Below are positions 2,183 to 27,448 of a stretch of 64,000 nucleotides of DNA, in pieces. The first letter of the stretch is position 1. Every line of letters begins with the position of its first letter. Origin of the DNA: Arabidopsis thaliana (lineage: Eukaryota > Streptophyta > Magnoliopsida > Brassicales > Brassicaceae); the NCBI RefSeq assembly GCF_000001735.4, contig NC_003070.9:8990001-9054000 (forward strand), given 5' to 3'. The notes under the pieces are model-generated. The model had not been told where the DNA came from and made no database searches. It was given only the letters and a program-made list of their open reading frames with translations. A program made the position numbers and the translations under genes.

Positions 2183-5100
2183 CTATTGCGAATTCAGTGG
2201 AAGAGTGGGCATTCCTTTCGCGTGTTGGCTCTCCATTTCCAGTAGCATCAACGACTTTTGCCTCTGGTATCTGTTTCTCTTTGCTGCTAGCGCTGCGCCA
2301 CACATACAAAGAGAGATATCAAGATTCGAGAATGTCCTTAAATCTTCTTCAACTATGACTAAGTTGGGTAATTTTACTCACATGTTAAATCGTGAGGAGG
2401 GGCAAAGTCATAATCATGTCTTCCTCTCCAGATGCAACACAAGTAAATGACCAAGAAAACCAGAATAAGAAACACCACACATGATATGGCTATGGCTATT
2501 TTACCCCCTTTGGATAAGTGGCCATTCTCCCATAATAGTGGACATGTCGGAAGAGATGGTACACCGCATAGTCCTTTGTTTCCAGAAAGACTGTAAAAAG
2601 ATGCAGATTATTGAGATAATGGATCAAAGAACAAAGCCATGGATAATGAGAAGGAAGGTAAAATTTTATCACTTATAAAAGAAAAAAGATTATTATCATA
2701 TGTGGACATTCGACATTAACGTACTCGATAATTCCACCATGAACACCAACTGAGTAGACCTCCTCTGGTACCTTTCCTTGCAATTCATTGCCATTCAAAA
2801 GCCTATCAACACATCATAGATAAACCAATCAGAGTTTGAGTTAAAGTCAATAAAGTTGGGTGTCATTAAAACCTTGTTAGGCATACTCTACTGATTAATC
2901 ATCTAATACATCAACATGTATTAATATTTATCATTATTTCCTAGTCAATTGAATAAAAAGTGGTTGTTTATGAAGCATCTTCTTACACGAGCTTTAGGCT
3001 TGACAAGGTCAGACTTTCAGGTATTGGTCCTGTGAGCTGATTGTTTGACAAGTCACTGCAATCCAAATAGGCAAACAATGAGCACAAATGCACAGAGCCA
3101 GAATTCTATATTAAGTTTCTCTAAGCCATCCCCACACTCCAATATCATTGTTTTATCGTCATCTTAAAGGCATGCATTTATAAGAAATATCTACAATTTA
3201 TAGACGCAACAAGGTAGAAAGATTCCCAGTCATGATAAAATTTGGCAACTGATCATGAACCGAGGTGTGTTAACTTACAGACTCACAAGGGATTTATGAC
3301 CAAGACCCAAAGGTAGTTGACCACTTAAGGTATTTGAACTCAAGTTCCTGCAAGAAAACAAAAGAAAATTTCATAATTGCCTTTGCGTCTTTCTAGTGAA
3401 ATCACTATGCCAACACATGCATCCAGTTGCATTATAATGAGCTATGAAGTCTGAGATAAATAAGCAAAGTCAATAGTTGATACTTACAGGCTATTCAAAT
3501 TTGTCAGGAGACTTATTTGCTCACTGATAAATCCTTTCAAGCCTTGGCTTCCAAGGTCTCTGAAACAGGAAAAAGACAATAACAAACTCCTATCTTAAGC
3601 ATTACATAATAAAACATTAATAGTAGGAAACCACAATGCATGCATAAGAAATAATAAGCATCATATAGAGTAATATTATGTATGTAGTTACTATCTATAG
3701 TTAACATTATTCGAGATAATGCCGAGATACATGTTTGCAACCCTTAATCCACAGTAAAGGAAGAAAGATGCATGTTTATAAACCACCCGCTCCCATATGA
3801 GTTTCCAAATCAAGTTCTTTGCTCTTTCTGATAATATTTGTCTAATCAACTTTACTAATTTTCAGCTTGCATACACAATGTGAAAGTGAATAAGACAAGC
3901 CAGGTCGGTTTACTGTATGCAACCGTGAGACTCACATTTGAAATATCACAAGGGCAGATCCTTGGGAATTTGGCCGGCATGAGACTCCCTCCCAAGCGTC
4001 CCAGCTAGTAGGAGCACAAGGATCACCATTCCAACCCATTCTATCAGGAACACGTAGTGAATCCTTCAATGCTTTCATAGCAGTCACTGTAAAACAAACA
4101 GAGAGTCAAAAATATGCCACAGACCAGTTTTTCTCAAAGCTATTATCAGAACTCCAATCAAATCAAGAAACCCATGATGTTGCAATCCATCAAACAACAG
4201 TGAGTATCCTTAACTTGACGTACCTTGTTCAGGTACTGTAGCCATATCAGCAGGAACAATAGCGTAATTTTCAAGCCCACTGATAATCGGTGCACCGGAA
4301 ACAGACGACAATTTCACTGTCACAATAGTACTACTCAGATTCTTCACAGTATAGTTTAAACTATAAGCTGCAAATCCTCCAACCTCATGGAACACATCAA
4401 CTCTGCTCACATTGTTATCATTCACCACCAAATCAAACACTCTTTGACCAGCCTTCTTCACCGTAGAATCAATCTCAGAAAAATGAAACCAAAGCAAGTA
4501 ATCAAGTTTCGCATCAACCTCAAGCTCATAAACCAACGAACCACCACCAGAAACTGTAACCGCCGTTTGATAAAGCTTCATCGGGAAATAATTCGGCGCC
4601 TGATCCACTCCTTTGATTTTCTCCAACGTAGACAACGACCTAGCCACCGATCTCGAATCTTCCGATCGAAAATCTTCGTCCGATTGCCACGACCGCCCGA
4701 AATTATCGGTGTGGTTAGTGAATCCAGGTCCCCACTGATCTGAACCACAAGAGAGCCTCCCATAGTTAACCAACAAAACATTCTGACCAGTCCCATCGGC
4801 GTCGTACGAAGAAGGATCAACTTGTAAGACTTCTAAGGAACCAACAATGGGAGGATCAGTAGCGATGCTATAAAAGCACAAATCGAGCTCACCGTCACCG
4901 ATAAAAGCAAAGAGATCAGAATAAGAGCCATCGCGGAGAAGACTCTCCGGCCAAGGAGATCTCCAAGAGAAAACAAGAGTGCCTTCGACGGAGACATCGA
5001 AAGACGGGGAATGAGATTTACCGTCGTAGTTATCATAAACGGTGAAAGTTCTGAGATAGTAACGACCAGGAGGGAGAGGAACGACGTAGCAATTCTTCTT

Positions 5101-12531: not shown

Positions 12532-14550
12532 CTAGAGTTTCCTTACAGAAACTGATGAAACCTTGGGCTTGCTTGCTGATGGGTTTGTAGATAAAGATGA
12601 AGCTTTGAATCCTCCTCTCAATAGGCTTGATGCGGATGCTGCGCTTATTTTCCTTCTTTTTGCTTCCAGCTCCATTCTTTTCTTGCTCGATGAGTAAGAC
12701 GACTCGGGAAAAATGGAAGATGCATGGATCAGTGCTCGTTTGTCCTTTCGATTCTTATCAAACTTGCTCTTGAATTTCACGTTTGAGGCAGCTTTAATAT
12801 CTTCTTCACTCTTTGGAAGCAGTCTTATCCCCAAGCCTAGCTTCCTTGAAGCAGTCTCTTCCTCTGCTACACGTTTTCTGTGTCGCTGGTAAATGAGAAC
12901 AAAGTGAGAAAGGAGGATTCGAAAAATCGGATTGCAAACAGAGCAAAAAATTGCAAACTTGGAACGAACCCTAAGTTGTGCACGTAGAGCTTTGTTTAGG
13001 GAGTAATCATCAGCATGTCTTGCATCTGAGACTCGCTGAAGACGGACCAAAAGCGGTTCAGCTGCTTTCTTCTTCTGTAAATCTACTTCCTGGTGCTCTA
13101 GACGATAAAAGGGGTCTGCAAGCTTTCCCTTCTCTGCAAAAGTTATTATCCCAAAGCATGTCAAGATTGAAGAAATAACAAGAGTTGAAATACAAACAGC
13201 TATTGAGAGATCTATAGAGAATAAAATCGTAGAAGAAGGTAAAAGAAACCAACCTTGCTCAGCAGTGAGCTCCATGGTTTCTGCATCTTCTGCTTCATAT
13301 TCCTCAACCTTCTTCTGGGCACCACTAGTGATTACATACTCGCAGTTCTGAGGATCTGTCTGAATGACTATCTCATGTTTACAGCATGGTGATTTCATTG
13401 CAAAGCTCCATATCTGACCATGATAAGATATAAATCCTCAGCCACAGTTCCATAGGAAAGAGGAGAAAGAATGCAGAAACAGAAATTGAAGAAGTCATAC
13501 ATATTTTAAGTGATGATAGAGAAAGGAGAGACTCTCAATAGTACCTTTGTAGAATAATAGTTGCCAACTTGCTTCTTTTCTGCATTAAATCGAACACCCT
13601 TGGCGATCATAGAACTACAGCCACCACACCATATATTATAGGGCATCTCGAACCTGAAGAAAACAAAAGCACGTATGAAATTTAAACCAAACTGAGAGTA
13701 ACAAAAACAAAGCTTCTGATCGATCAACAAAATGTACACCAGGGGTAGACTTTAACATCGAGCACACTTTAATTACATTTGATCATCAAATAGGTTCTTT
13801 CATGTTATACTTAAGGTTTAGCCTCATCACTCTATTCATGGATCACAGTAGCAATCTAATGAACAACAACTAGTGTGAATCCAACCAAAAGTAGCATCTC
13901 CCTCACGATGTTACAACTAGAATGAGCTAATAATATAGTATATAATTTACCTTATGACCAAAATTCCCTCGCCAATTTTCTTTGCCCTCTCTCTGAGAGG
14001 ATGCTGTCCTTGAAACTTGTTCAAGGAACCTTGATCCGGAGTCCATTCTGGAGGATAGTAAAAGTTATCTGCCCTGGCAGCTGATAGAGTCGACTGCAAA
14101 ACAAAAGGTACAAATCGAAAAGAGTTAAAACAATGATGAAACTAAAATCAATGAACACAATTACCAGATAGGATCCTCAATAATCAAATACACAAGGCAA
14201 GCAATTGATTAGATTAGCCGAATCATAGAGAAAATTTTCGATAACAAGCTAAAACCTTGCAATTATCAAATTGTCAAAACGAATACAGAAAATTTTCAAA
14301 GTACCAACGAACCATATGAAAAATCGATTGAGACAATCACGAATAACTCTGAAAAAACAAACCCTAGAACCAAATCCTAGTATCGAAAACCATAATGAAA
14401 AAAAAATTTAGGGCTTCGAAGATTCATTACAACAAACAAACATGGTTTTATCCCCAATTTGCTACCACCTCAAGGAGCAGAAGATAAATCAAGCGATTGA
14501 CAAATAGAAGGAAATTAATTGAATACAAGGAGGACAATAAAACTAACCAT
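12532..14550 (-). CDS. CWC16/Yju2-family (DUF572) splicing-factor homologue (At1g25682-like)
   Basis: Six exons: 14548-14550 (only the ATG), 13951-14093, 13545-13653, 13254-13413, 12970-13133, 12532-12885; 310 aa. Exon 2 carries the family start (ADNFYYPPEWTPDQG). A zinc-binding module follows, with C-x2-C in exon 3 (IWCGGCSSMI) and a Cys pair in exon 4 (SPCCKHEI, then IQTDP). The C-terminal half is basic and rich in Lys, Arg and Ser. Family knowledge: Yju2/CWC16 (CCDC94, CCDC130) joins the spliceosome around the first catalytic step. The short exon 1 is a bare start codon, supported by ATG|GTTAG and a matching acceptor. Introns 4 (120 nt) and 5 (84 nt) are both multiples of three and stop-free, so unspliced RNA reads on in frame (see findings). 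A broken copy lies at 26173-27448. Confidence 0.93.
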
Positions 14551-14898
14551 CGAGATTAATCAAATCGATCTTCCTAGTCTCCTCCTTGATGTTCAATCGC
14601 ACAACTCTTGGCTCTTGGTGAAAAGACTTGTAACTAATCCCCAGGTAACGAAACGAATCTTCTTCTACCTCAGGAAAACGCCGCCGTATTGGTGATTAAT
14701 TTCCAACGCGGTCGCGGATCTCTATCATTTAATTGGTTCACACGGTTTAGGTTATTCATTTTATCTATGGTCAATGTCGGTACGGTAAATGTCTTATTTT
14801 ACAAGTTTGAAAAACGCGAAGGGCGTTTAAATTAAGGGTAAATTGCAGGCCACACCCGTTGACCATGTTTTATTTCCATGGATTGTCAAAGTCAAATG

Positions 14899-14921
14899 TG
14901 GTTTTCACCATTTGTCTTTTC
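14899..14921 (+). repeat. left subterminal inverted repeat of the MULE
   Basis: TGGTTTTCACCATTTGTCTT and the next three bases match the reverse complement of 25677-25699 at 21 of 23 positions. Weaker similarity continues outward (AAAGT followed by an A-rich stretch on both sides). A second subterminal theme rich in GGTTTAG lies at about 14973-15030 on the left, with its complement near 25540-25640. Confidence 0.75.
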
Positions 14922-15556
14922 GCCTGCAAAATGACGCTTCTGCCCTTGCGCTTCTCTCTTAGCAACTGTTGAAATGTACGGTTTAGTTTAGCAGGTTTAG
15001 TTACGTACACTGTTCCGGTTCAGTTGAAGATTTTTTGTTCACGTTGACGCGATTCGGTTCCGTTACAAGTGAGATTATTCCGAAGTGACATCAACATTTA
15101 ATGCCCCCAAAAAGTTTAGATGTGACTATTGTCATAATTAATGAAAAATCATCATTACATCAAATAATATTAAAAAAATTATTAATAATAATTAAAAAAT
15201 TTTTTGTTGAGATAAAGAAGATGAACCCAGGAACAAAGAATTATTGAGAACGTACATTGCTGCTGAAGAAGTGTTGATCTTGTTTTTGTACCAAGTTTGG
15301 AGCATTGCTCGTGTAAGTAATGAAGTTCTTTTAAGAAGTTTTTTTTATGTCATATTAGGATCTTGATTGTGTTCGAACTCCATTTTTTTATCAGAATATT
15401 TGCAAAATCTATATTTGTTTGTTTAAAATAGTCAAATGATAATTGGTATTTAGGTTTATAAATGTGTAGTATCGACATTCCATTTGTTTTTTATATGTAT
15501 AGTATTTTTCAGTTGCATTTAATGTGTGTCTCCTGAATTTATGATGCAGGTGGGTT

Positions 15557-18495
15557 ATGGATATTCCCGTATTTACCATGGTCGGTGAGTGGAAATGCAA
15601 AGAAGGAGAATGGAAATTTGAACCTGAGGAAGGCATCTTTGGTCGTTATGTACGCGTTCAGGAAACCATGACGTACACGGACTTTGTCCGTACACTCCGA
15701 GAGGCTTTCAGTTTGAAGTCCACCGAGATCAATCCCATAATTAGCTACTGGATGCCGGGTGAAATGTCAGTGCTGATAGATACTAAACGCCCTCCTGTAT
15801 ACATTGACAGTCAGATGGGTCTCGAGACGTTTTTTTTGGTTCGTGGTGGGTATCTTTCTCTCAACTTGTTCGTCTCTTTCAATAATACAGTGAAGGCGTT
15901 CGGGAATACTGTCTCTAGGTCTCATGGTGAAGTTTCTGAAAGTGACCGTGTGTTTGATAGTGCTACAAATGTTGATGAAAATAATGAGGATGCAGAGGAG
16001 CAAGCCGATGTTGAAGACGATACAACAGAAGAGGATGAATTGGAGGAGGGCAACGAAGATGATGATGGGTGTGATGATTATCTTGGTGTGGATGGATCTA
16101 TTGGGGGAAGTACCCTGTATCCTACCACAGACGGTAGTGAAGGTATTGGCGAAGAATACGATTACAACAAGTGGAACGATGTAATAGTAGAAGAATATGT
16201 ACAAGGAAATCTTGAGGAAGACGTCAGTCTCACTCAACAGACTGCTCAACATCCAGGGAAATTCAGTCGTTTATTGGAAACGTGTACGTACACGGGTGTT
16301 AGTGTACCTGGCGGAGATACAGGGGAATTCAGTCGTCTCTTGGAAACGTGTACGTACACTGGTCTTAGTGTACCTGGCGAAGAAACAATCTCTCAATTGG
16401 GTTACGGTACACGCTGCGAAGGGCAAAGGGATTCCAATCTTATTTGTATAGACGAAGTCACCGGGGATGAAGTGATCGAAGGTATTGGAGCTTCCTCAAC
16501 TGGGACACAAAATGATAATGGGGTAGTTACCGCAGCTGAGGCTTACCAAGTGTATAATGAATTTCCTAAGTTACATGGTGGCGAGTTGGCGAATCTCGGT
16601 AACGATGTTGCTCCTGTGTTCGATGACTTACTCAATTTTCGAGCTGATGAGACACAGGTTGAAATCAGCACCACAGGCGAAACTTTGTTTGTTGGAAGTG
16701 TTTTTAAGAATAGAAAAGTCCTGCAACAAACAATGTCTCTTCAAGCGATAAAGCAATGCTTTTGCTTCAAGCAACCTAAGTCATGTCCTAAAACATTGAA
16801 AATGGTGTGCGTTGATGAGACTTGTCCATGGCAATTGACTGCTCGCGTCGTGAAGGATTCAGAAAGTTTCAAAATCACTTCGTATGCTACGACACATACG
16901 TGTAACATCGACTCTCGGAAGTACTACAATAAACATGCTAATTATAAGCTCCTCGGAGAAGTTGTGAGGAGCAGATACAGTTCTACGCAGGGTGGGCCGC
17001 GAGCTGTCGACTTACCACAACTGCTCCTAAAGGATCTGAATGTGCGTATTTCATATTCTACCGCTTGGAGAGCAAAAGAGGTTGCAGTGGAAAATGTACG
17101 GGGGGATGAGATAGCAAATTACAGGTTTTTGCCGACCTATCTGTATCTTCTCCAATTAGCTAATCCGGGTACAATAACACACCTACACTATACACCAGAA
17201 GATGATGGTAAGCAGCGCTTCAAGTATGTCTTTGTCTCTCTTGGCGCTTCTATCAAAGGTCTGATATATATGAGGAAGGTAGTTGTGGTAGATGGAACGC
17301 AGCTAGTCGGACCTTACAAAGGATGTCTCCTTATTGCATGTGCCCAAGATGGGAACTTCCAAATATTCCCAATAGCTTTTGGTGTTGTTGATGGTGAGAC
17401 CGATGCTTCTTGGGCATGGTTTTTTGAAAAGTTAGCTGAGATTGTTCCAGACAGTGACGATTTAATGATTGTCTCGGACAGACATTCATCTATATACAAA
17501 GGCCTAAGTGTTGTTTACCCGAGAGCGCATCATGGAGCATGTGCTGTTCACCTTGAGCGAAACCTCTCCACCTATTATGGTAAGTTTGGTGTGTCTGCTT
17601 TATTTTTCAGCGCTGCCAAAGCTTATAGGGTCAGGGATTTCGAGAAATATTTTGAACTGTTAAGGGAAAAGAGTGCTAAATGCGCAAAATACCTAGAGGA
17701 CATAGGATTTGAGCATTGGACAAGAGCTCACTGTAGAGGAGAACGCTACAATATCATGTCGAGCAACAACTCTGAGTCCATGAATCATGTGTTAACAAAA
17801 GCAAAAACTTATCCGATTGTTTACATGATCGAGTTCATTCGGGATGTCCTAATGCGATGGTTCGCATCGAGGAGAAAGAAAGTTGCTAGGTGCAAATCTT
17901 CTGTGACACCTGAGGTTGATGAGAGATTTCTACAAGAGTTGCCTGCGTCAGGTAAATACGCTGTGAAGATGTCTGGACCGTGGAGCTATCAAGTGACAAG
18001 TAAATCCGGGGAGCATTTTCATGTCGTTCTGGACCAGTGTACATGTACGTGTCTTAGGTACACCAAGTTAAGAATCCCATGTGAACACGCTCTAGCAGCT
18101 GCAATCGAGCATGGAATTGATCCGAAGTCTTGTGTCGGATGGTGGTATGGCCTTCAAACGTTTTCTGATTCTTTCCAAGAACCAATTCTACCTATCGCGG
18201 ATCCGAAAGATGTTGTCATCCCACAACATATAGTGGATTTGATACTCATTCCTCCATACAGTAGACGGCCACCAGGAAGACCACTGTCCAAAAGGATCCC
18301 ATCTAGAGGTGAAAACCGGGTATGTACTAACATCGTTCATTCATCTACTTGTATTTTGAGTATTACCATGCGGAGATTTGTAACTTCCTGTCTTTGTCAC
18401 TTCAGAAAAAGAGACAGAAAAGACTTTTACCAAATCAGTGCTCACGCTGTCGACAAGCAGGTCATAACAAGAAGACGTGCAAAAATCCAATCTAG
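15557..18495 (+). CDS. mudrA: mudrA transposase of the MULE
   Basis: Exon 1 is 15557-18319 and exon 2 is 18406-18495, giving 950 aa. The intron is proposed because the spliced tail restores a CCHC zinc knuckle (C-S-R-C-x4-H-x4-C), while the unspliced frame runs into unlikely sequence. Order: a PB1-like N-terminal part (about 1-105), an acidic linker with a 22-codon tandem duplication, the MuDR zinc-finger DNA-binding region (about 390-470; C-x4-C then H-T-C), the MULE DDE domain and a SWIM finger (about 825-845, C-x-C...C-x-H). Candidate catalytic residues are D579 (VVVDGT), D641 (SDR) and E740 (NNSES), with C-x2-H in GACAVHLE between them. Every expected motif is present and no stop interrupts 920 codons, so this could still be an active transposase. 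Expression is probably silenced by the host, which sequence cannot show. Confidence 0.93.
16261..16392 (+). repeat. 66-bp in-frame duplication in mudrA, each copy with TGTACGTACA
   Basis: Two 66-bp units (22 codons) start at 16261 and 16327 and encode nearly the same peptide (FSRLLETCTYTG then a V-S-V-P or L-S-V-P ending). Each carries the palindrome, at 16283-16292 and 16349-16358, where it encodes the Thr-Tyr part. Confidence 0.9.
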
Positions 18496-19078
18496 TTCCG
18501 GTGACAAGTTTCTGAGCCGGCCAATATAGTGTACGCTTCTGTGTTTTCTCGGTGTACGTAAGTTTATATATAATCCACCTGTAACTATGTACGTTGTGTA
18601 CGTACGTTTAAACTCTACGTTCGTATAACTATGAACGTTTTTGTCTGTGTACGTGTTAAAGTTCATGTAATAAGGGTACACAGAGGTGGTTGCTCAATAT
18701 TTTGAGTAATTTGAAATAAGTTTTTTGAAAATCTAACTTATTCCCCCTCTTAAATGAACGGAGTTGGAGACATGGTTGGGTATATTGTGGTTGTGTTGGT
18801 ATTTCATGGAAAGGACGTAACTGTTGCTGTTTATTGTCAAATCAACGTTATGATTACCCTATATGACGGTTACCAGGCTATTACCAAAAATTTGAATCAA
18901 GTGTAGTTGTAACCGCATTAATAACTGTAGCCGTTCCAGATTTCCTCTATTTAAGTCTCCTCCCTTCCTTAATTTTATCCACAATCCTCATTCTAAACCC
19001 ATTTCTTGTGCCGGCAGTTATATCATTCACAAAAAAAAAATTTAGTCTTTCGAATCGATTGTTCTTGCTATCCGTGAG
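18496..19078. promoter_or_regulatory. GTAC-rich noncoding segment between mudrA and the OB-fold gene
   Basis: Between 18530 and 18665 there are at least five GTACG words, including GTGTACGTACG at about 18594-18604, a one-base variant of the element palindrome. The position fits the mudrA 3' UTR and spacer. Farther right (about 18940-19078) is the likely 5' leader of the OB-fold gene. A function as a binding-site cluster is inference from word density only. Confidence 0.5.
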
Positions 19079-20027
19079 ATGGAGGGGTTTCATACGGTCT
19101 CAGAATTGTGTCCTCTGATCACTGGGTGGCGAATTTATGTCTTTGTCGTGAGGGTCTTCAAGAAGGTTATATCGCCCAACGTCTTCGAACTCGGCCTTAT
19201 CCTGGCAGATTACGAGGTTATTTCCGTTAAATCATTATGTGTTTTTCTCGTTCATTCGCTTAACTTATATATTAAACTCTCTACTATCATGTTCTGTATG
19301 TAAAGAATAACCGTATTGAGGCCACCGTTGATCGTCGCCTTGCTCCGTTTTACGAAGACCGATTCGTTGAAAATGAGTGGAAGACGATCACCTCTTTCTT
19401 GGTCCGTAAGTCAACTGACTTAGTCAGAGCAACAAAGCATGAATACGGCATACTGTTTATGGATCGGACCGTCGTCGTTCATGCCCCACCGAGATCACCA
19501 CCAGTTCCAGATTTCGATTTCACTCCCTTCGACTACATTTTGGATAAATCTGCTTACAAGAACGTTTTAGTCGGTGAGGAGGAATAACTCTGACGCTTCA
19601 TTTATTACATTTTTGAAAATGTTTGTTTATTATCTTTGTTTCTCCATCATCTAGATGTCATTGGAGCGTTGGTTGATGTTGGCGCATTGACTACAGACTA
19701 TTACGGTCTCAAACTGAGTTTCAAGTTAAAAGATAGATAGTAAGTGTTCTTTTCATTTGTTTTATTTACAATGTCACTCTAAACGCTAACAGTCCTTATT
19801 TCTAACGTAGCAATGAAGTCTTGAAGTGCGAAGCCCGCAATCAACAGGCGGAGTACTTGAATGGTTACTTTTAGAGTTTGGGTAAGGGAAATTTTGTTGT
19901 CGCACTTAGCTTTTGGCGTCTAACCGAACTGTCTAACCCGAAGCTTGAGAGCCATGGTGCTATTTCAAAGGTGGTTGCCAATCCGGACAGAGAAGAAGTT
20001 GCGGATATCTCGATGGTGGTTTTTTAG
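19079..20027 (+). pseudogene. captured RPA1-like (DUF223) OB-fold gene with one in-frame stop
   Basis: Four exons: 19079-19216, 19306-19573, 19655-19739, 19811-20027, with consistent phases and GT-AG sites. The start (SELCPLITGWRIYVFVVRV) and the following ILADYE, NNRIEATV and YGILFMD match the first OB fold of plant RPA70-like/DUF223 proteins; the next part (DVIGALVDVG, then KLSFKLKDRYNEVLKC) resembles the second OB fold. The frame then meets TAG at 19872-19874 and, if read past it, stays open and protein-like (SLGKGNFVVALSFWRL) to a TAG at 20025. So a single stop cuts the second fold. Family knowledge: RPA1 OB folds bind single-stranded DNA in replication and repair. Here the gene lies between two transposon genes, so it is a captured copy. 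Alternatively the short product ending at 19874 is what is used. Confidence 0.75.
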
Positions 20028-20257
20028 CTAGAGGGAATGAACCATTATTCTCCGTTTTAATATAATATAAGACTACATTTCAATTAAGTTTTCTTTCCCA
20101 GTTGTTGTTGTTGTTGTTTCCATAAGAACCAAACTACATTTCAATCGTTGTTGTTTTTTGTTTCCGTTTAAATTTTAATCTAATTTGTTGTTTTATGTAC
20201 GTGCCTTGTTTTATTGTTCAAATCCTCTCGCAATGTACGTATAGTTTCTGGTGTACG
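20028..20257. promoter_or_regulatory. GTAC-rich spacer between convergent OB-fold and Ulp1-like genes
   Basis: Between about 20197 and 20265 are TATGTACGTG, CAATGTACGTATAG, a GTGTACGC word and CGTGTACGTATATT. Two more GTACG-type words fall just beyond, in the 3' end of the Ulp1-like gene (about 20322-20347). The segment probably holds the 3' UTRs of both genes. Confidence 0.45.
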
Positions 20258-23200
20258 CTATCGTGTACGTATATTAGTTTTGGTGCCTTCAACATCAAAA
20301 ACTGTTAGATTTATACTTATGTTGTGTACGCAATTTCCCAATGTACGATAAACGAAGTGCACAGTACCGGCCTCCCGCTTGCCGTGCTCGTAGATGTCAA
20401 CGGAGTATTTCTGACGGTAGAAGACCATATCTGCTTCTCGAATGGTTGCCAGATCCGAAAAAGGGTGTCCAAACGCAAGCAACTCCAGGAACTTCATCGT
20501 GTATGGCCCGCAATCTCCTGTAGTTGGGTTTTGAGCAACGGTAGGACAACGCACATACTCAAAAGGTTCAACTGAGTACGGAGAAATCAATACATCCTGG
20601 CACATCGCTCTGACTAAGTACGGCATCATTTCGCAAATAGGAGTCATTCTCGCCTTCACAGCCGACTCCCGCGTGTACGATATTAAAGCGTCATACACAG
20701 TTATTAGCCGTTCATTAAGGTTGATTCCCAAAGCAACCCAATGTTCACTCTTCCAGTTCATCGGAGCATACACAACATCGACATCCTTCATCCACTTCAT
20801 ATTGGGTTCACGGTTTATGTGAACTCCATTAGCAATGTCGGACAGTAATTTACCCCATTTGAACCCGTTCTTATTAATACACTTCTTGAAGTCGCCCACC
20901 CGCTTGGTAAGAAGATGCGTCAGCATCATGTCCAATACAATACATCTGTTTGCTATCATTTGTTCCCCGTTCTTGTGCCACATCAACATTGCCATCATTT
21001 CTAAATGCTGAAATGTTCAAAAAATATATCAGTGTACGTACACTTCCACGAAAAATTTAATCATCTATGTACAATTTATAACAAGGAATGTACGTATATA
21101 AATGCAACGTACCGTACTTTCGACCCATTCACCAAGTGTTAGAAGGTTCGCAAAAAAGTCGTTGGGCACTTTTCGAAACCCGAAAAGAGTGTGAATCCTG
21201 TAAAATCCAGAAGAATATTTGATAACAACCTTAAAAATGATGATTGAGGTATTAAATAATCCATTTTACTATAATGTACTTACACAGAGGGTCCTTTAAT
21301 GATATTGCTTAATTCCTCTATTTTTGAAGGGTCAACCACGTCCAGGGGGTTGTATGAGACATTTCCAGCCCTGATAACAACCTCTATCTGTTGAGCTGGT
21401 ACATCGGGCACCAATACTGTTTTTGCCTTAAAACCATGAGGATGGGCATCATCCAGTTCATAGACAAGTTGTTTCTTCACTTTCTTTGGGGACGATTTTT
21501 TTTCTTCTTTTGCTTCGACAGCAGCAGCATTGTCTGATTCATCCTGTTAACAAATATGATTGTCAACAACAGTTTCATACGTTTTCCTATGTTTAAAATA
21601 GGTACATACATTATTTTTAGGAATATCGGTCTTGTCTGCTTCATCTGACCCTGGGTTAGGATCCTCAGTTTCTACAGACCCCTCGATAATACACGGCTCT
21701 TCCATGACTACCTGTGCAAGTTAACGTACACAAGTATATATAATGTACACATATAATCCTATGTATGCTATTCCGAAAATAGGAATTGAAACACACAAAT
21801 TGTTACCTCCAAATCAGTGGCTGCAGCTAAATCACCAACGGCTTTGGTATCCAACTCCCGTATGACCTGCATAATATAAATTTTATACATTTGAACAGTA
21901 AATAGTACATTTTATTTGTTGCAAGAGTTAGCTTACATTGTTAACTACTTGAAATGGTGACGGGGGATCATTGTGGGTCTTCTTAGGTATTTCAACTTCC
22001 ATCACTGTCACTAATTTGGATTCTCCTGCCGCCTCAACCTGTAGAATTTAGCATCGGAAAGAAACTTTTTAGTAATGTATGAAACAATATATATGTACAC
22101 AGAACATAGTGACAAAAATGTACGTACACTTGTGGCAGGTACGTGAGCTGTGTCTCCATCAGAAGGCTCATAAGTTTCTTCTGACTCGCTGCCATTAGCT
22201 TCAGTCGATGCACTGGCATCTCTTGCTTCTTCCTGAAACAAAAATAATTTGCAAAGTCTTATGGGCGTACACATATGGAAAAAGAACAAGTGACTAACAC
22301 ATACCTGTGCAGATGTTGAAGGTAAACCTGATGGATTGTCTACCATCTCTATGTCAGCATCAGCTATTTCATCGGCCCCTGTATGGGTACCAACTAAGCC
22401 AGGTTCAACAACATCCTTTGGTCCATTATCCTGAAACATAGGCTACCATAGAGTTAAGCGTTAGATAAGTGAAGAAATTAATGTAACAGTTATGCATATA
22501 GTCATGGAAATCTGTATATAACGATTACCAGAAGATCTACCTCTGAAACTCTTGCAGACACATTAGATGGAACTTCTTCCATCTGGGTGTCAACAGTAGC
22601 TTCTTCCACAGGCCTCTCTTCCTGTGTTACAAAGACAGTCCCAGACATTGAACCTAAGCAGATAGTCTTACCAACAACAACATTTCCTCTATCCTGAAAC
22701 ATAGTTTAACTAACTTCTTAAGCGAATATGTACGTACACCATTTAAACAGATTGTTAAGAGTATTAGTAGACGACATACCAGATGGGATTGTGTGGATCC
22801 AGCATAAGGAACTATTAAAAATCCAGTGTCTAATATCTCTTCTTCAGCGGCAGAAGAATTCAATCCATCATTTGCAGTAAAATCACTTTCATTATTAGCG
22901 CCATCCTGTATCGAACCAGACAGTACAGTTATACATATGGATTATAAAATATTTAGCAATGTACGTACATGACTTACCTGTTCATCAATGAATCCTTGCA
23001 TATCTTCCTTATTGGAATCAGGTTCCTCAATAGTGTCAACAGCAAAAGAAAAATTTTTCTTCGGCTTTGAAGGTTTTCTTCTTCCGCCGAAAGCAGTGGT
23101 ATGTACTCCAGGGACATCCAAATCTTCCTCTTTGGAATTACAGCCAACAGAAAGTGCAGGAGTGTCCACATCATGAGAAACACGAGTCAGCCTTGAAGAC

Positions 23201-25226
23201 TTTCTCGTTCCAGTGCTTCCTTTTGTAGACATCCTTCTCGATGGCTTCTTCGCAGTAACCAGTGCCTTATCCATAGAAGTAGGTGGTTCCCGCGAATCAT
23301 GGGAATGTATGGTTTGTTCTGGCCTTTTGCCTTTTGGATCAAGGGCAGCACGTATCTGGTCACGGACAAAGTCTTTCATATCTTCATGCATTTGATACAT
23401 TTGGTCTTCCAGCTCCTTCAAAGACCTCCTCATTTCAACAATAAACCTCTCAGGCACAGGCTCTCCAAAACAATCCTCAGCAGTCTCTTCTTTATCACAG
23501 TCCATTTCAGATTTCTGTTTTTTCATAGCAGGTTCTTTAGGGCTCGGGCCCGGTGCATTTCGTTTCCTCTTAACATCTACAATAAACCAGTTGCTGCTAT
23601 TAATTGGTTTTCTTCTAGGTGCAATACCAAAAAAATTTGTAAAAACATTTATACTTATACTTACCTGTCTCTTCTAGTTGTGGTGGGCGCGACTGCTTTG
23701 GTACTCTAGCATAGCCTCCAACCCATTCATCCTCCTGCCACTGGTGCCCATCTATCAACAGTGCCTCAATGTAATCAACCCTTGGATCATCAACTTCATC
23801 ATCCCATGAAAGAGATGGAGGACAAACATTATCAGCTGGTTTCACAATATAGTTGACCTCAACCTACACAAATAAGTATGTTAACCATAGATAATGTACA
23901 TTTACTTATTATGTACGTACATACACAATTTAACACACCTCATCAGCAGCCTCTCACTCCAAAATGCGAGATGTCCGGATTGCTCGCAGAGAGGCAAGAC
24001 GATGGATAGACCTCTCAGCAAATGTCCTGTTAGGTACATCATCAGGTCCTAGCTTAGCAATTGATGGGATTGTTTCGAAAGCTAAAAGCTGGAGAGCTAA
24101 TGGGAAACCATGGAGTGCATAAGACCCTACAAGTATACCCCTTATTAGTTTCTGAGCATCGTAAGGAGTTTGGAAATTTGCTATCCTCCCCAAAGTACGG
24201 GTAAAGGACACCCTTCCCCATGGGTATTTACAGAAAAACTCCAGGTTCTTAGTCATCTCGACAGTCTTCGAAGTAGGCCTGTTGGGGTTACTGTGGGCCG
24301 CTACCACACCGTCAACCAAAATAATAAGAGATAGTGCCAGTTGCTTCCACCCCTCCATGCTTTCCTCCTCCTGCAGCCAGCTCACCAAATCAGCAATTGT
24401 TGGAACCGTGTCCCCAAACCTCTCATGAAACAGAGTATTCCAAACACTCTCACACTCAGGTTTCACACTGATAACATCATCAACGTCTTTCTTCTTGGGA
24501 TACTTCCCACATTCCAGCCCAGTTAAGATACTAAATTCTCTTAATCCAAATCTGATTGGATGACCGCCGAATACAATCCACATCTCATTCACCTTCTTTG
24601 TCACTAACTGACGGCATATTAGTCCAAGGACAAGCTTAGCATTGAAAGATGCCTTGTTTTTGGGTATTTTAAAAAGTTTCCCAAATGGAGAATCGAGAAG
24701 AAACTGCATCTCTGGTTTCCCCTTTAGTACTTTTGCTATGTCAGAAATGTACTCCGGTTTAGAGTACGCGTTCATCTTCGTCTCGGAAGGGTACCGGTCT
24801 AGAGCAAAGAGTCTTGGTGGTAACTCTTCAACTGTAAGATCTTCAGTCGGAGCAACACTTGGACTACCTGCAATTAAAAGTCATATACTGTTGAGCAAAC
24901 AGAAGTAGTGTACGTACACAGACATTTTCCAGATTATAACTTAAAATCATATTTTTGGCGGAAACAGAGATTTCCAATTCTACTTCTCAATTTTTCATCC
25001 TAAAGATATGCTAAATTCCGACAAATTCTAACACTTTAATCAAACAAGCTTTACAATTCTGATACACCCAAAGACAACAAACGGTAAATTAGAGATTCTA
25101 ACCCAGTTCCTCCGTTGCCTTTGTCGCAGAGCGTTTTCTTCGCGGGGAAACTCTTAATACACGCTTCTCCTTCCCTGGACCATGCTGTTTCCTCGGGACT
25201 TCGTCGTTAGCTTTATTTCCAGCCAT
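20258..25226 (-). pseudogene. DUF1985 / Ulp1 (C48) SUMO-protease-like gene of the MULE, one internal stop
   Basis: Fourteen exons can be joined with GT-AG sites and consistent phases: 25103-25226, 23939-24867, 23665-23863, 22978-23576, 22780-22905, 22529-22693, 22305-22430, 22128-22232, 21937-22038, 21807-21866, 21610-21711, 21284-21543, 21113-21197, 20258-21007. The product would be 1243 codons. Exon 2 carries DUF1985 (FGLREFSILTGLECG). Exons 4-12 form an acidic linker of small exons. Exon 14 is the C48 peptidase: catalytic His (codon 20741-20743, SEHWVAL), Asp (20690-20692, VYDAL), Gln (20531-20533) and Cys (20510-20512, GDCGPY) are all kept. One TGA (23954-23956) interrupts exon 2 after ...RTSRILE; the frame continues cleanly after it. 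Family knowledge: Ulp1 enzymes cut SUMO from proteins; transposon-borne copies have no proven substrate. A start after the stop, read-through or a sequencing error are alternatives. Confidence 0.82.
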
Positions 25227-25260
25227 AGCTAAAGATGCTATCTCGCCGGAGGTTCAAATT

Positions 25261-25356
25261 TCGCCGGAAAAAACAGTAACTTTCTCTTGGCTTCGCCGGG
25301 AAAAACAGTAACTTTCTCTTGGCTTCGCCGGGAAAAACAGTAACTTTCACTTCAGC
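25261..25356. repeat. 32-bp tandem repeat, three copies, in the leader/promoter of the Ulp1-like gene
   Basis: Units start at 25261, 25293 and 25325, each beginning TCGCCGG and containing AACAGTAACTTTC. They lie 35-130 bases upstream of the ATG at 25226, so they fall in the 5' UTR or core promoter of the minus-strand gene. The third unit diverges at its end. Confidence 0.9.
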
Positions 25357-25676
25357 GGATGTGGGAGTTCAGTGGCACAATTCAACTACCCAACAATTCG
25401 AAGTTATGTCGAATTTTGAAGCAATGGATACTGAATTTCGTTTCGCTTTCTGATTCTCTCTCAATCTCTCCGTTATTCTCTTTTTCGTTTTTTCTCGGTT
25501 TCTTCGTTTCAGTTTTTTTTTTTTTGTCTTTTTCAAAACTGAACCGCATCAACTAAACCGAAACCAACTGCTGTAGGGTTTGGTTTATGCCGTCAACTTA
25601 ACCGATACGAACTGCTGCACGGTTTGGTTTGTGCCATTATTAAGTTTTCCCAGGGTAATTTGGTCCGAAATTGAAT

Positions 25677-25708
25677 GAAAAGACAAAACGTGAAAACCAG
25701 TTTTCACT
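25677..25708 (-). repeat. right subterminal inverted repeat and terminal palindrome of the MULE
   Basis: 25677-25699 is the partner of 14899-14921. At its outer edge lies GTGAAAAC-CA-GTTTTCAC (25691-25708), a perfect 8-bp inverted repeat with a 2-base spacer. The left end has only the inner half. The element should end within about 15 bases to the right. Confidence 0.75.
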
Positions 25709-25723
25709 TTAATAATTCGGTGA

Positions 25724-25805
25724 GTAGAACGCAGACGTGATTTGTGTGTCAGCTCCCATCACTCCTTTTATCACAAGCGGCTATAGTTGAGCTCCGGCCA
25801 TCTGA
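25724..25805 (+). repeat. copy of the GET3d promoter/leader (block P')
   Basis: Near-identical to 30394-30475, directly upstream of the GET3d start (shared TGTGTCAGCTCC and ATCACTCCTTTTATCACAAG). Here no GET3d coding sequence follows; the sequence passes directly into a block resembling 10060-10135. Confidence 0.9.
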
Positions 25806-26172: not shown

Positions 26173-27448
26173 TTATTGTTTCTTACATTGATTCATTTCA
26201 AGCACAGTTGTTAAAACTACAGCTTCCTTACATTTGCTTGTTGATGGCGTTTTAGACAATGCTGAAGCTTTGAATCCTCCCCTCAGTAGATTTGATGCTG
26301 ATGCTGCGGTTATTTTCCTTCTCTTTCCTTCCAGCTCCATTCTTCTCTTGCTCGATGATGACACCGAGTAATCTGACTCGGGAAAAATGGAAGATGCATG
26401 GATCAGTGCTCGTTTGTCCTTTCGATTCTTATCAAACTTGGTCTTGGATTTCACGTTTGAGGCAGCCTTAATATCTTCTTCACTCTTTCGAAGAAGTCTG
26501 ACTTCTCCCCAAGCCTAGCTTCCTTGAAGCAGCCTCTTCTTCTGCTACATGTTTTCTGTGTCCCTGACAAATGAGAACAAAGTTAGAAAGTACGATCGAA
26601 AATCGGACTGCAAGCAGAGAATAATTTGCAAACTTGGAACTAACCCTAAGTTGTGCTGTTTAGGGAGAAACCATCAGCATGTCTTGCGTCTGAAACTCGC
26701 TGGAGGCGGACCAAAAACGGTTCTGCTGCTTTCTTCTTCTGTAAATCTACTTCCTGGTGCTCTAGACGATAAAAGGGGTCTGCAAGCTTTCCCTTCTCTG
26801 CAAAATTTCTTATCCCAAAGCATGTCAAGATTGAAGAAATAAGAAGAGTTAAAATACAAACAGCTATAGAGAGATCTATAGAGAATAAAATCGTAGAAGA
26901 AGGTAGAAGAAACCAACCTTGCTCAGCAGTGAGCTCCATGGTTTCTGCATCTTCTGCTTCATATTCCTCAACCTTCTTCTGGGCACCACTAGTGATGACA
27001 TACTCGCAGTTCTGAGGATCTGTCTGAATGACTATCTCATGTTTACAGCATGGTGATTTCATTGCAAAATGAGAGTAACAGAAACAAAGCTTCTGATCGA
27101 TCAACAAAATGAAAACCATGGGTAGACTTTAACATCGAGCCAAACCAACACACTGACACCAACTCAAGCAAAGTACACACTTTAGTTACTTTCGATCATC
27201 ATAATAGTTTCATGTTATACTTTGGTTTAGCCTCATCACTCTATTTATGGATCCCATAAGCAATCTAATTGTGTGAATCTAACCAAAAGTAGTATCTACC
27301 TCCCGATGTTACAACTTGGAAACTAGGGAATCACTGGAATGAACTAATATAGTATTTGACTATATTTACCTTATGACCAAAATTCCCTCGCCTATTTTCT
27401 TTACTTTGATTCGGAGTCCAGTCTGGGGGATAGTTAAAGTTATCTGCC
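26173..27448 (-). pseudogene. broken duplicate of the CWC16 gene (At1g25988-like)
   Basis: High similarity to 12532-14100 over exon 2 (partial), exons 4-6 and introns 4-5. Differences: exon 1 and the start of exon 2 are missing (similarity begins at GCAGATAAC near 27448); about 44 bp are lost inside exon 2; a deletion at about 27067 removes exon 3, hence the first zinc Cys pair, and the start of exon 4; 11 bp are lost near the end of exon 5; about 4 extra bases in exon 6 shift the frame near 26500; and the C-terminus differs. The two open pieces (26646-27119 and 26173-26454) are in different frames. A full CWC16 protein cannot be made, though a truncated transcript could exist. Confidence 0.92.

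Follow-up and report, generated by a model that had tools for sequence, protein, structure and literature searches.

A palindromic word shared by VANDAL elements of Arabidopsis thaliana as the probable target of a VANC anti-silencing system

Why does a palindrome of ten bases occur eight times in one transposable element and nowhere else in the surrounding DNA? This question is raised by a stretch of 64,000 nucleotides from Arabidopsis thaliana (contig NC_003070.9, here C1, positions 8,990,001 to 9,054,000; hereafter the window), which carries a KIU-type VANDAL element, a Mutator-like element (MULE), at 14835..25724 (C1:9004835-9015724). A preliminary description of the window had reported eight exact copies of TGTACGTACA and none elsewhere in the 64 kb, and all eight were re-found. 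Its estimate of a chance expectation well below one was borne out by a computed value of 0.02, and none of 100 dinucleotide shuffles reached eight copies. The pattern is real and strong, and systems of this kind are known already. We consider it very probable that TGTACGTACA is the target word of the family's VANC protein, present here in a damaged copy of the element.

As judged from the predicted genes, the element has the KIU make-up, with a mudrA (VANA) transposase gene and a VANC-like gene that combines DUF1985 and Ulp1. The long first exon of mudrA is located on the plus strand at 15557..18319, in an open reading frame from 15557, and encodes MULE, SWIM and Transposase_mut domains. The MULE domain (E 3.1e-17) identifies the MULE-type transposase gene by which a VANDAL element is recognized. 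The VANC-like gene lies on the minus strand with an Ulp1-type (Peptidase_C48) exon at 20258..20998 and a DUF1985 exon at 23954..24865. Both domains were found in one minus-strand frame when stops were read as X, and the predicted introns suggest that they belong to one transcript. The DUF1985 exon, for which 32 of 38 homologues were used in the alignment and six were left out, matches VANC21 (PDB 9lnj/9lnk, in complex with target DNA) in sequence profile and in fold. VANC21 alone stood out in the fold search with E 6.5e-9, the next matches starting at E 0.45 among 50 of 194 rows.

The word TGTACGTACA consists of two overlapping TGTACG half-sites, and TGTACG is the basic unit of the pattern. 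The window contains 47 half-sites compared to 11.5 expected (0/100 shuffles reached 47). Thirty-nine of them are inside the element, whose bounds were set to 14860-25720 for this count, and the 53 kb outside contain 8. The five 6-mers most enriched in the element versus the remainder of the window were CGTACA, ACGTAC, GTACAC, TACGTA and ATGTAC, all of them parts of TGTACGTACA or of its immediate surroundings. Allowing up to one mismatch gave 14 copies in the window versus 0.99 expected, all within 15685-24918. Six of these are one-mismatch forms, at 15685, 18597, 20234, 20264, 21089 and 21275. Thus, the variant described before at 21089 stands, whereas most of the look-alikes described at 18530-18665 and 20197-20347 share just the half-site with the word. 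The corresponding regions hold a cluster of five half-sites at the 3' end of mudrA (18530..18653, plus strand) and a cluster of six between the genes (20196..20347, plus strand).

Six of the exact copies, which like the element itself are recorded without strand, are located in six different introns of the VANC-like gene, one in each, as had been claimed. They are found at 21033..21042, at 22119..22128 near the donor end of its intron, at 22729..22738 (intron ~22695-22779), at 22960..22969 (intron ~22907-22977), at 23912..23921 (intron ~23865-23938) and, in the first intron, at 24909..24918. All of these introns are predicted, their ends having been read from splice-like signals, and an exact copy is lacking from at least one other predicted intron, near 23600-23665. 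The other two copies are in mudrA coding sequence, at 16283..16292 (in the sequence for ETCTYTG) and at 16349..16358. They occupy the two copies of a 66-bp tandem duplication, which are 89% alike; consequently, these two words are neither independent nor noncoding. With two of eight exact copies in coding sequence and with half-sites in exons as well, the word is not spread through noncoding DNA alone, contrary to what had been proposed.

The distribution of the word was then considered for the whole genome (119,662,809 bases in 7 contigs). A total of 494 exact sites was counted, compared to 408 for the reversed word as control. Thus, the claim that the word is confined to the element holds within the window and fails for the genome. 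Since the control comes this close, the genome total alone shows little, and clustering was used as evidence. Among the first 50 of the 494 sites, all on C1, 38 are grouped in six clusters, the other 12 occurring singly; uniform placement (n=2000) gave on average 4.3 clustered sites and at most 14. The genome-wide count that had been suggested as a check is consequently weak as a total and strong in the clustering of these 50 sites. Five of the six clusters were read whole or in part, namely the window, an inverted sister copy, L036, L037/L042 and L038; the sixth lies at C1:11.049 Mb. No cluster was found around four of the 12 single sites which were examined (L001-L004).

Related elements were collected by a mudrA protein search, which gave at least 56 matches. 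Since 50 of 563 first-look candidates were scored, the family sizes are lower bounds. Grouped by position, 15 sister copies besides the window copy have mudrA genes 93-99% identical to that of the window. Every one of the 15 has at least one exact TGTACGTACA in its fetched mudrA region, so that the word is indeed kept in sister copies, as the preliminary description had proposed to verify. The sisters A2 (L006, C5:14443855) and A3 (L007, C5:14503155) are identical over 4983/4983 element bases, which leaves 14 distinct sisters; from their position ~59 kb apart and their identity they may represent a recent duplication. Sister A3 (C5:14.50 Mb), which was read over its whole length, contains 54 sites, ten of which are exact; some of the 54 form an array near its middle. 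Sister A11 (C1:9676200-9692733) is a near-identical inverted copy 0.67 Mb off on the same contig.

A second family was identified by mudrA genes of 66% identity. Its four loci (L015-L018) contain 2, 2, 3 and 2 exact words, and in the copy at C1:17.03 Mb the 6.5 kb downstream of mudrA contain 5 exact words and 28 half-sites versus 4 of the reversed word. Four partial relatives (L024, L027, L029 and L030) have 3, 2, 1 and 1 exact words, so that each of these eight more distant relatives has 1 to 3; relatives with 36-52% identical mudrA were left unfetched for that gene. Of two more distant VANDAL VANC loci, whose DUF1985 is 43% and 40% identical, the first lacks half-sites over 5.0 kb and the second has one within 6.0 kb.

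In addition, the word is arranged in tandem repeats of variable copy number, which occur in the sisters and in short relatives. In A11 (L039) the array is built of 66-bp units, in which half-sites follow at a distance of 12 bp. Its signature, TGTACGTTN{2,10}TGTACGTT, has 15 matches in the genome compared to 6 for the reversed control, and all 15 are found at seven loci of the window element's family, in 4, 1, 1, 4, 2, 1 and 2 copies. The short elements form a third family with 21-bp units, TGTACGTACACATTACTACCG; at C5:16.909 Mb at least seven of these follow one another. For the pairs TGTACGTACAN{8,13}TGTACG there were 68 matches (34+34, the palindromic pair being counted on both strands) compared to 7 (3+4) for the control. 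These are located at 17 loci, and a DNA search that used a single short element as query (98 matching pieces listed) recovered all of them as well; one of the 17, L036, also holds a piece of mudrA. The short element L042 spans ~2.3 kb and is flanked by 9-bp repeats AAAACATAA, one at 972 and one at 3251. It has no open frame longer than 112 codons and is therefore presumably non-autonomous. Thus, the word is common to at least three element families, and the suggestion that it is this element's own word had to be abandoned.

In the window copy the array has been lost. The deletion junction is located at 20342..20358 (unstranded), where A3 has ~4.4 kb and A11 ~3.8 kb more, including the 66-bp half-site array, and the reading frame of the Ulp1-type exon runs through the junction. 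In A11 the segment missing from the window copy holds the array together with a gene 67% identical to a gene of the second family. Since the window copy lost its array by this deletion of ~4 kb, the preliminary description dealt with the scattered remainder of a stronger pattern. About 17 bases at the junction match both sides of the gap. The left boundary of the element is marked by sister identity starting between 14825 and 14836 in most fetched sisters, the end itself being AGGGTAAATTG. At the right boundary identity to A3 ends at 25724, and the element is truncated there, A3 and A11 continuing for several dozen bases beyond the equivalent position.

Some further features of these copies were noted. 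By eye, a 9-bp flanking duplication TTAAGTATA was seen in A3 and none was spotted at the window copy. Direct repeats at 13000-14073 and 26664-27448 (89-97%) flank the window element, as if neighbouring sequence had been duplicated on both sides. A DUF223 fragment (19079-19300, plus strand, E 1.1e-14) lies between mudrA and the VANC-like gene and is possibly a captured piece of a gene. Three tandem 32-bp units at 25260-25355 are found just upstream of the presumed start of the VANC-like gene. Extra genes are present in A11 (L039 489-1283 and 3139-3774) and in an element of the second family (L035 1770-2465); L039 489-1283 and L035 1770-2465 show 67% identity to each other and otherwise gave a weak plant TPR-like match that stayed below its cut-off.

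Could the word have been spread merely by tandem duplication and common descent, as a functionless passenger? The arrays are tandem repeats, and two of the eight copies in the window represent one duplication. Moreover, the intron stretch 20956-21104 aligns between the first and the second family at 77%, so that not every shared site is independent and its two sites may be inherited. However, the six intron copies are outside longer shared repeats (repeats of at least 25 bases were compared). The two families align outside mudrA just in small parts of the stretches compared, yet both are enriched in the word. A DNA comparison of the short elements with the window element gave no match, though the short elements carry the same word at high density.

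The coding sequence also argues against such passive spreading. The mudrA exon contains 9 half-sites, 7 of which are in the first 900 bases; among 500 synonymous shuffles the average was 1.5, and 9 was never reached. The duplication contributes to this number: four of the nine are half-sites of the palindromes in the two 66-bp copies, so that the count overstates independence. The mudrA of the second family, with one stop inside, has 6 half-sites versus 1.7 (2/500 shuffles reached 6), and five of the 6 fall within its first 900 bases. The word may have spilled over here into coding DNA that is under weak constraint. All in all, we regard a functionless passenger as highly unlikely.

The location of six copies in predicted introns and the clusters near gene ends would also be compatible with a site for a host factor, i.e. 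a transcription or splicing protein which drives the genes of the element or the splicing of its introns. However, the densest arrays were found in the short elements, and L042, the one examined in this respect, has no frame above the 112 codons mentioned. The word also occurs in exons, and the four single sites described above are without a surrounding cluster. The chance that a host factor explains the word appears very slim, slimmer than that of a passenger. The least probable explanation of the three is a binding site of the transposase (MURA) instead of VANC. Transposases of this kind bind the ends of their elements. By eye, the short elements and the window element's family have terminal sequences in common (GGGTAAATTG at one end, AGAAATTTTCAC at the opposite one), and a single transposase might serve both. 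In contrast, the words are found all along the introns and in internal arrays, at distances of kilobases from the termini.

Several observations weigh against the assignment of TGTACGTACA as a VANC target. Some half-sites are located in exons, where VANC21 was not found. The partial relatives L029 and L030 contain few half-sites, 3 and 7 compared to 3 and 4 of the reversed word. Among sisters the noncoding substitutions amounted to 9/756 at the sites versus 577/27878 elsewhere (p 0.12); sites not significantly more conserved than their surroundings are also what passive spreading would give. Within coding sequence, CpGs belonging to sites were altered more often than the remaining CpGs (11/194 versus 68/2801, p 0.016). 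Pairs of TGTACG at 18-24 bp showed no excess genome-wide, with 277 (124+153) versus 260 (130+130) for the reversed control. Finally, the spacing is not generally helical, being 21 bp in the short elements and 12 bp in the arrays of the window element's family.

For the substitution counts the coding limits are approximate, and alignments below 93% identity or below 200 bases were dropped together with locus L006. CpGs of noncoding sites changed in 4/248 cases compared to 59/1799 (p 0.24). For purifying selection on the sites among young sisters no significant signal was obtained. General helical phasing was rejected: over pooled site distances the mean cosine amounted to 0.02 at a period of 10.5 bp, and the value of 0.32 at 11 bp owes part of its size to the repeated 66-bp units. 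After removal of repeated distances a weak maximum of 0.15-0.19 remained at 10.5-11 bp, a figure with no null model behind it. As no general period was found and the pairs at 18-24 bp were near control, phasing is kept solely for the 21-bp units.

How does the VANC target fit into what is known of these systems? VANC21 is not known to carry an Ulp1 domain. Over the fold, VANC21 and the VANC-like protein described here share ~20% identity. The word of VANC21, from VANDAL21, is YAGTATTAY, whereas TGTACGTACA is found here; VANC6 of VANDAL6 resembles the present case in having its motifs in tandem repeats and differs in the motifs themselves, AGTTGTCC and AGTTGTAC (Hosaka et al. 2017, PMC5735166). 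According to the same paper, the targets of VANC21 and VANC6 are short, family-specific motifs in noncoding tandem repeats of variable copy number (PMC5735166). The comparison with published VANC motifs that had been suggested showed TGTACGTACA to be distinct from the words of VANC21 and VANC6, the two published ones compared.

A review of gene capture, citing Sasaki et al. 2022, states that Ulp1-carrying VANDALs of the KIU type recognize specific motifs in noncoding regions of others of their type, which become hypomethylated (PMC13317346). VANC1 affects VANDAL1, 2, 22, 1N1 and 2N1, and AT1TE56425 is a VANDAL1 copy (PMC10398659). VANC1 resembles the protein described here in combining DUF1985 with Ulp1 and in having N-type families among its targets; here, two autonomous-type families and one short-element family share one word. 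By the numbering of transposable elements on chromosome 1, AT1TE56425, the VANDAL1 donor of VANC1 near 17.03 Mb of C1, is presumably the second family's copy. On the same scale AT1TE68310 would lie near 20.7 Mb of C1. Among the pieces listed for the short family none falls there, and consequently the short family may not be VANDAL2N1. AT1TE68310 is assigned to VANDAL2N1 (PMC5081565).

By analogy, TGTACGTACA is very probably the target of a KIU-type VANC anti-silencing system, and this system is probably that of VANC1 (Sasaki et al. 2022). That work (EMBO J) is said to describe VANC1 and at least 10 such systems in Arabidopsis, in which motif sequence, density and helical periodicity reportedly matter. 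The assignment to VANC1 is suggested by the make-up of the element and by the pattern of its targets. A full-text literature search, with Sasaki et al. 2022 beyond its reach, did not find TGTACGTACA or TACGTACA/GTACGTAC as a VANC or VANDAL motif. If the link to VANC1 is right, the word is likely to be a VANC1-type word that has been published already. The idea of VANC-bound words in the noncoding DNA of KIU VANDALs is largely in print.

The preliminary description had proposed that the word is bound by the element's own VANC-like protein. This proposal is in keeping with the retention of the word in sisters, the arrays, the near absence of the word from the two distant VANC loci and the match of DUF1985 to VANC21; it needs to be revised in that the word is neither the element's own nor purely noncoding. 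The protein would bind the word, and recognition of the palindrome may be symmetric or dimeric. In the proposed mechanism VANC would bind word-rich noncoding stretches, i.e. intergenic arrays, introns and ends, of any element with enough copies. Bound VANC would then recruit or enable the loss of DNA methylation, so that the genes of the element could be transcribed. Tandem duplication would maintain and amplify the word, and by carrying it short non-autonomous relatives would likewise escape silencing.

A more specific version of this model is rather doubtful as a whole. It states that the word is an unpublished, CpG-centred palindromic target read as two half-sites by the DUF1985-Ulp1 protein, and that the central CpG would make binding sensitive to the very methylation that is removed. 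The word would be common to three VANDAL families, so that one VANC could free them all, and it would extend into the N-terminal transposase coding sequence.

The analysis indicates that one raw copy of an element is enough to reveal the word targeted by a sequence-specific anti-silencing system. The word has been connected with three element families as well as with a protein of a fold now solved on DNA. Should it be the VANC1 motif, this would be a clean independent recovery; if not, it would be a further word. VANDAL22, VANDAL2N1 and VANDAL2 are among the families over-represented in temperature-variable methylation (PMC4413256). If these are the families described here, a shared word could help to explain their temperature-variable methylation.

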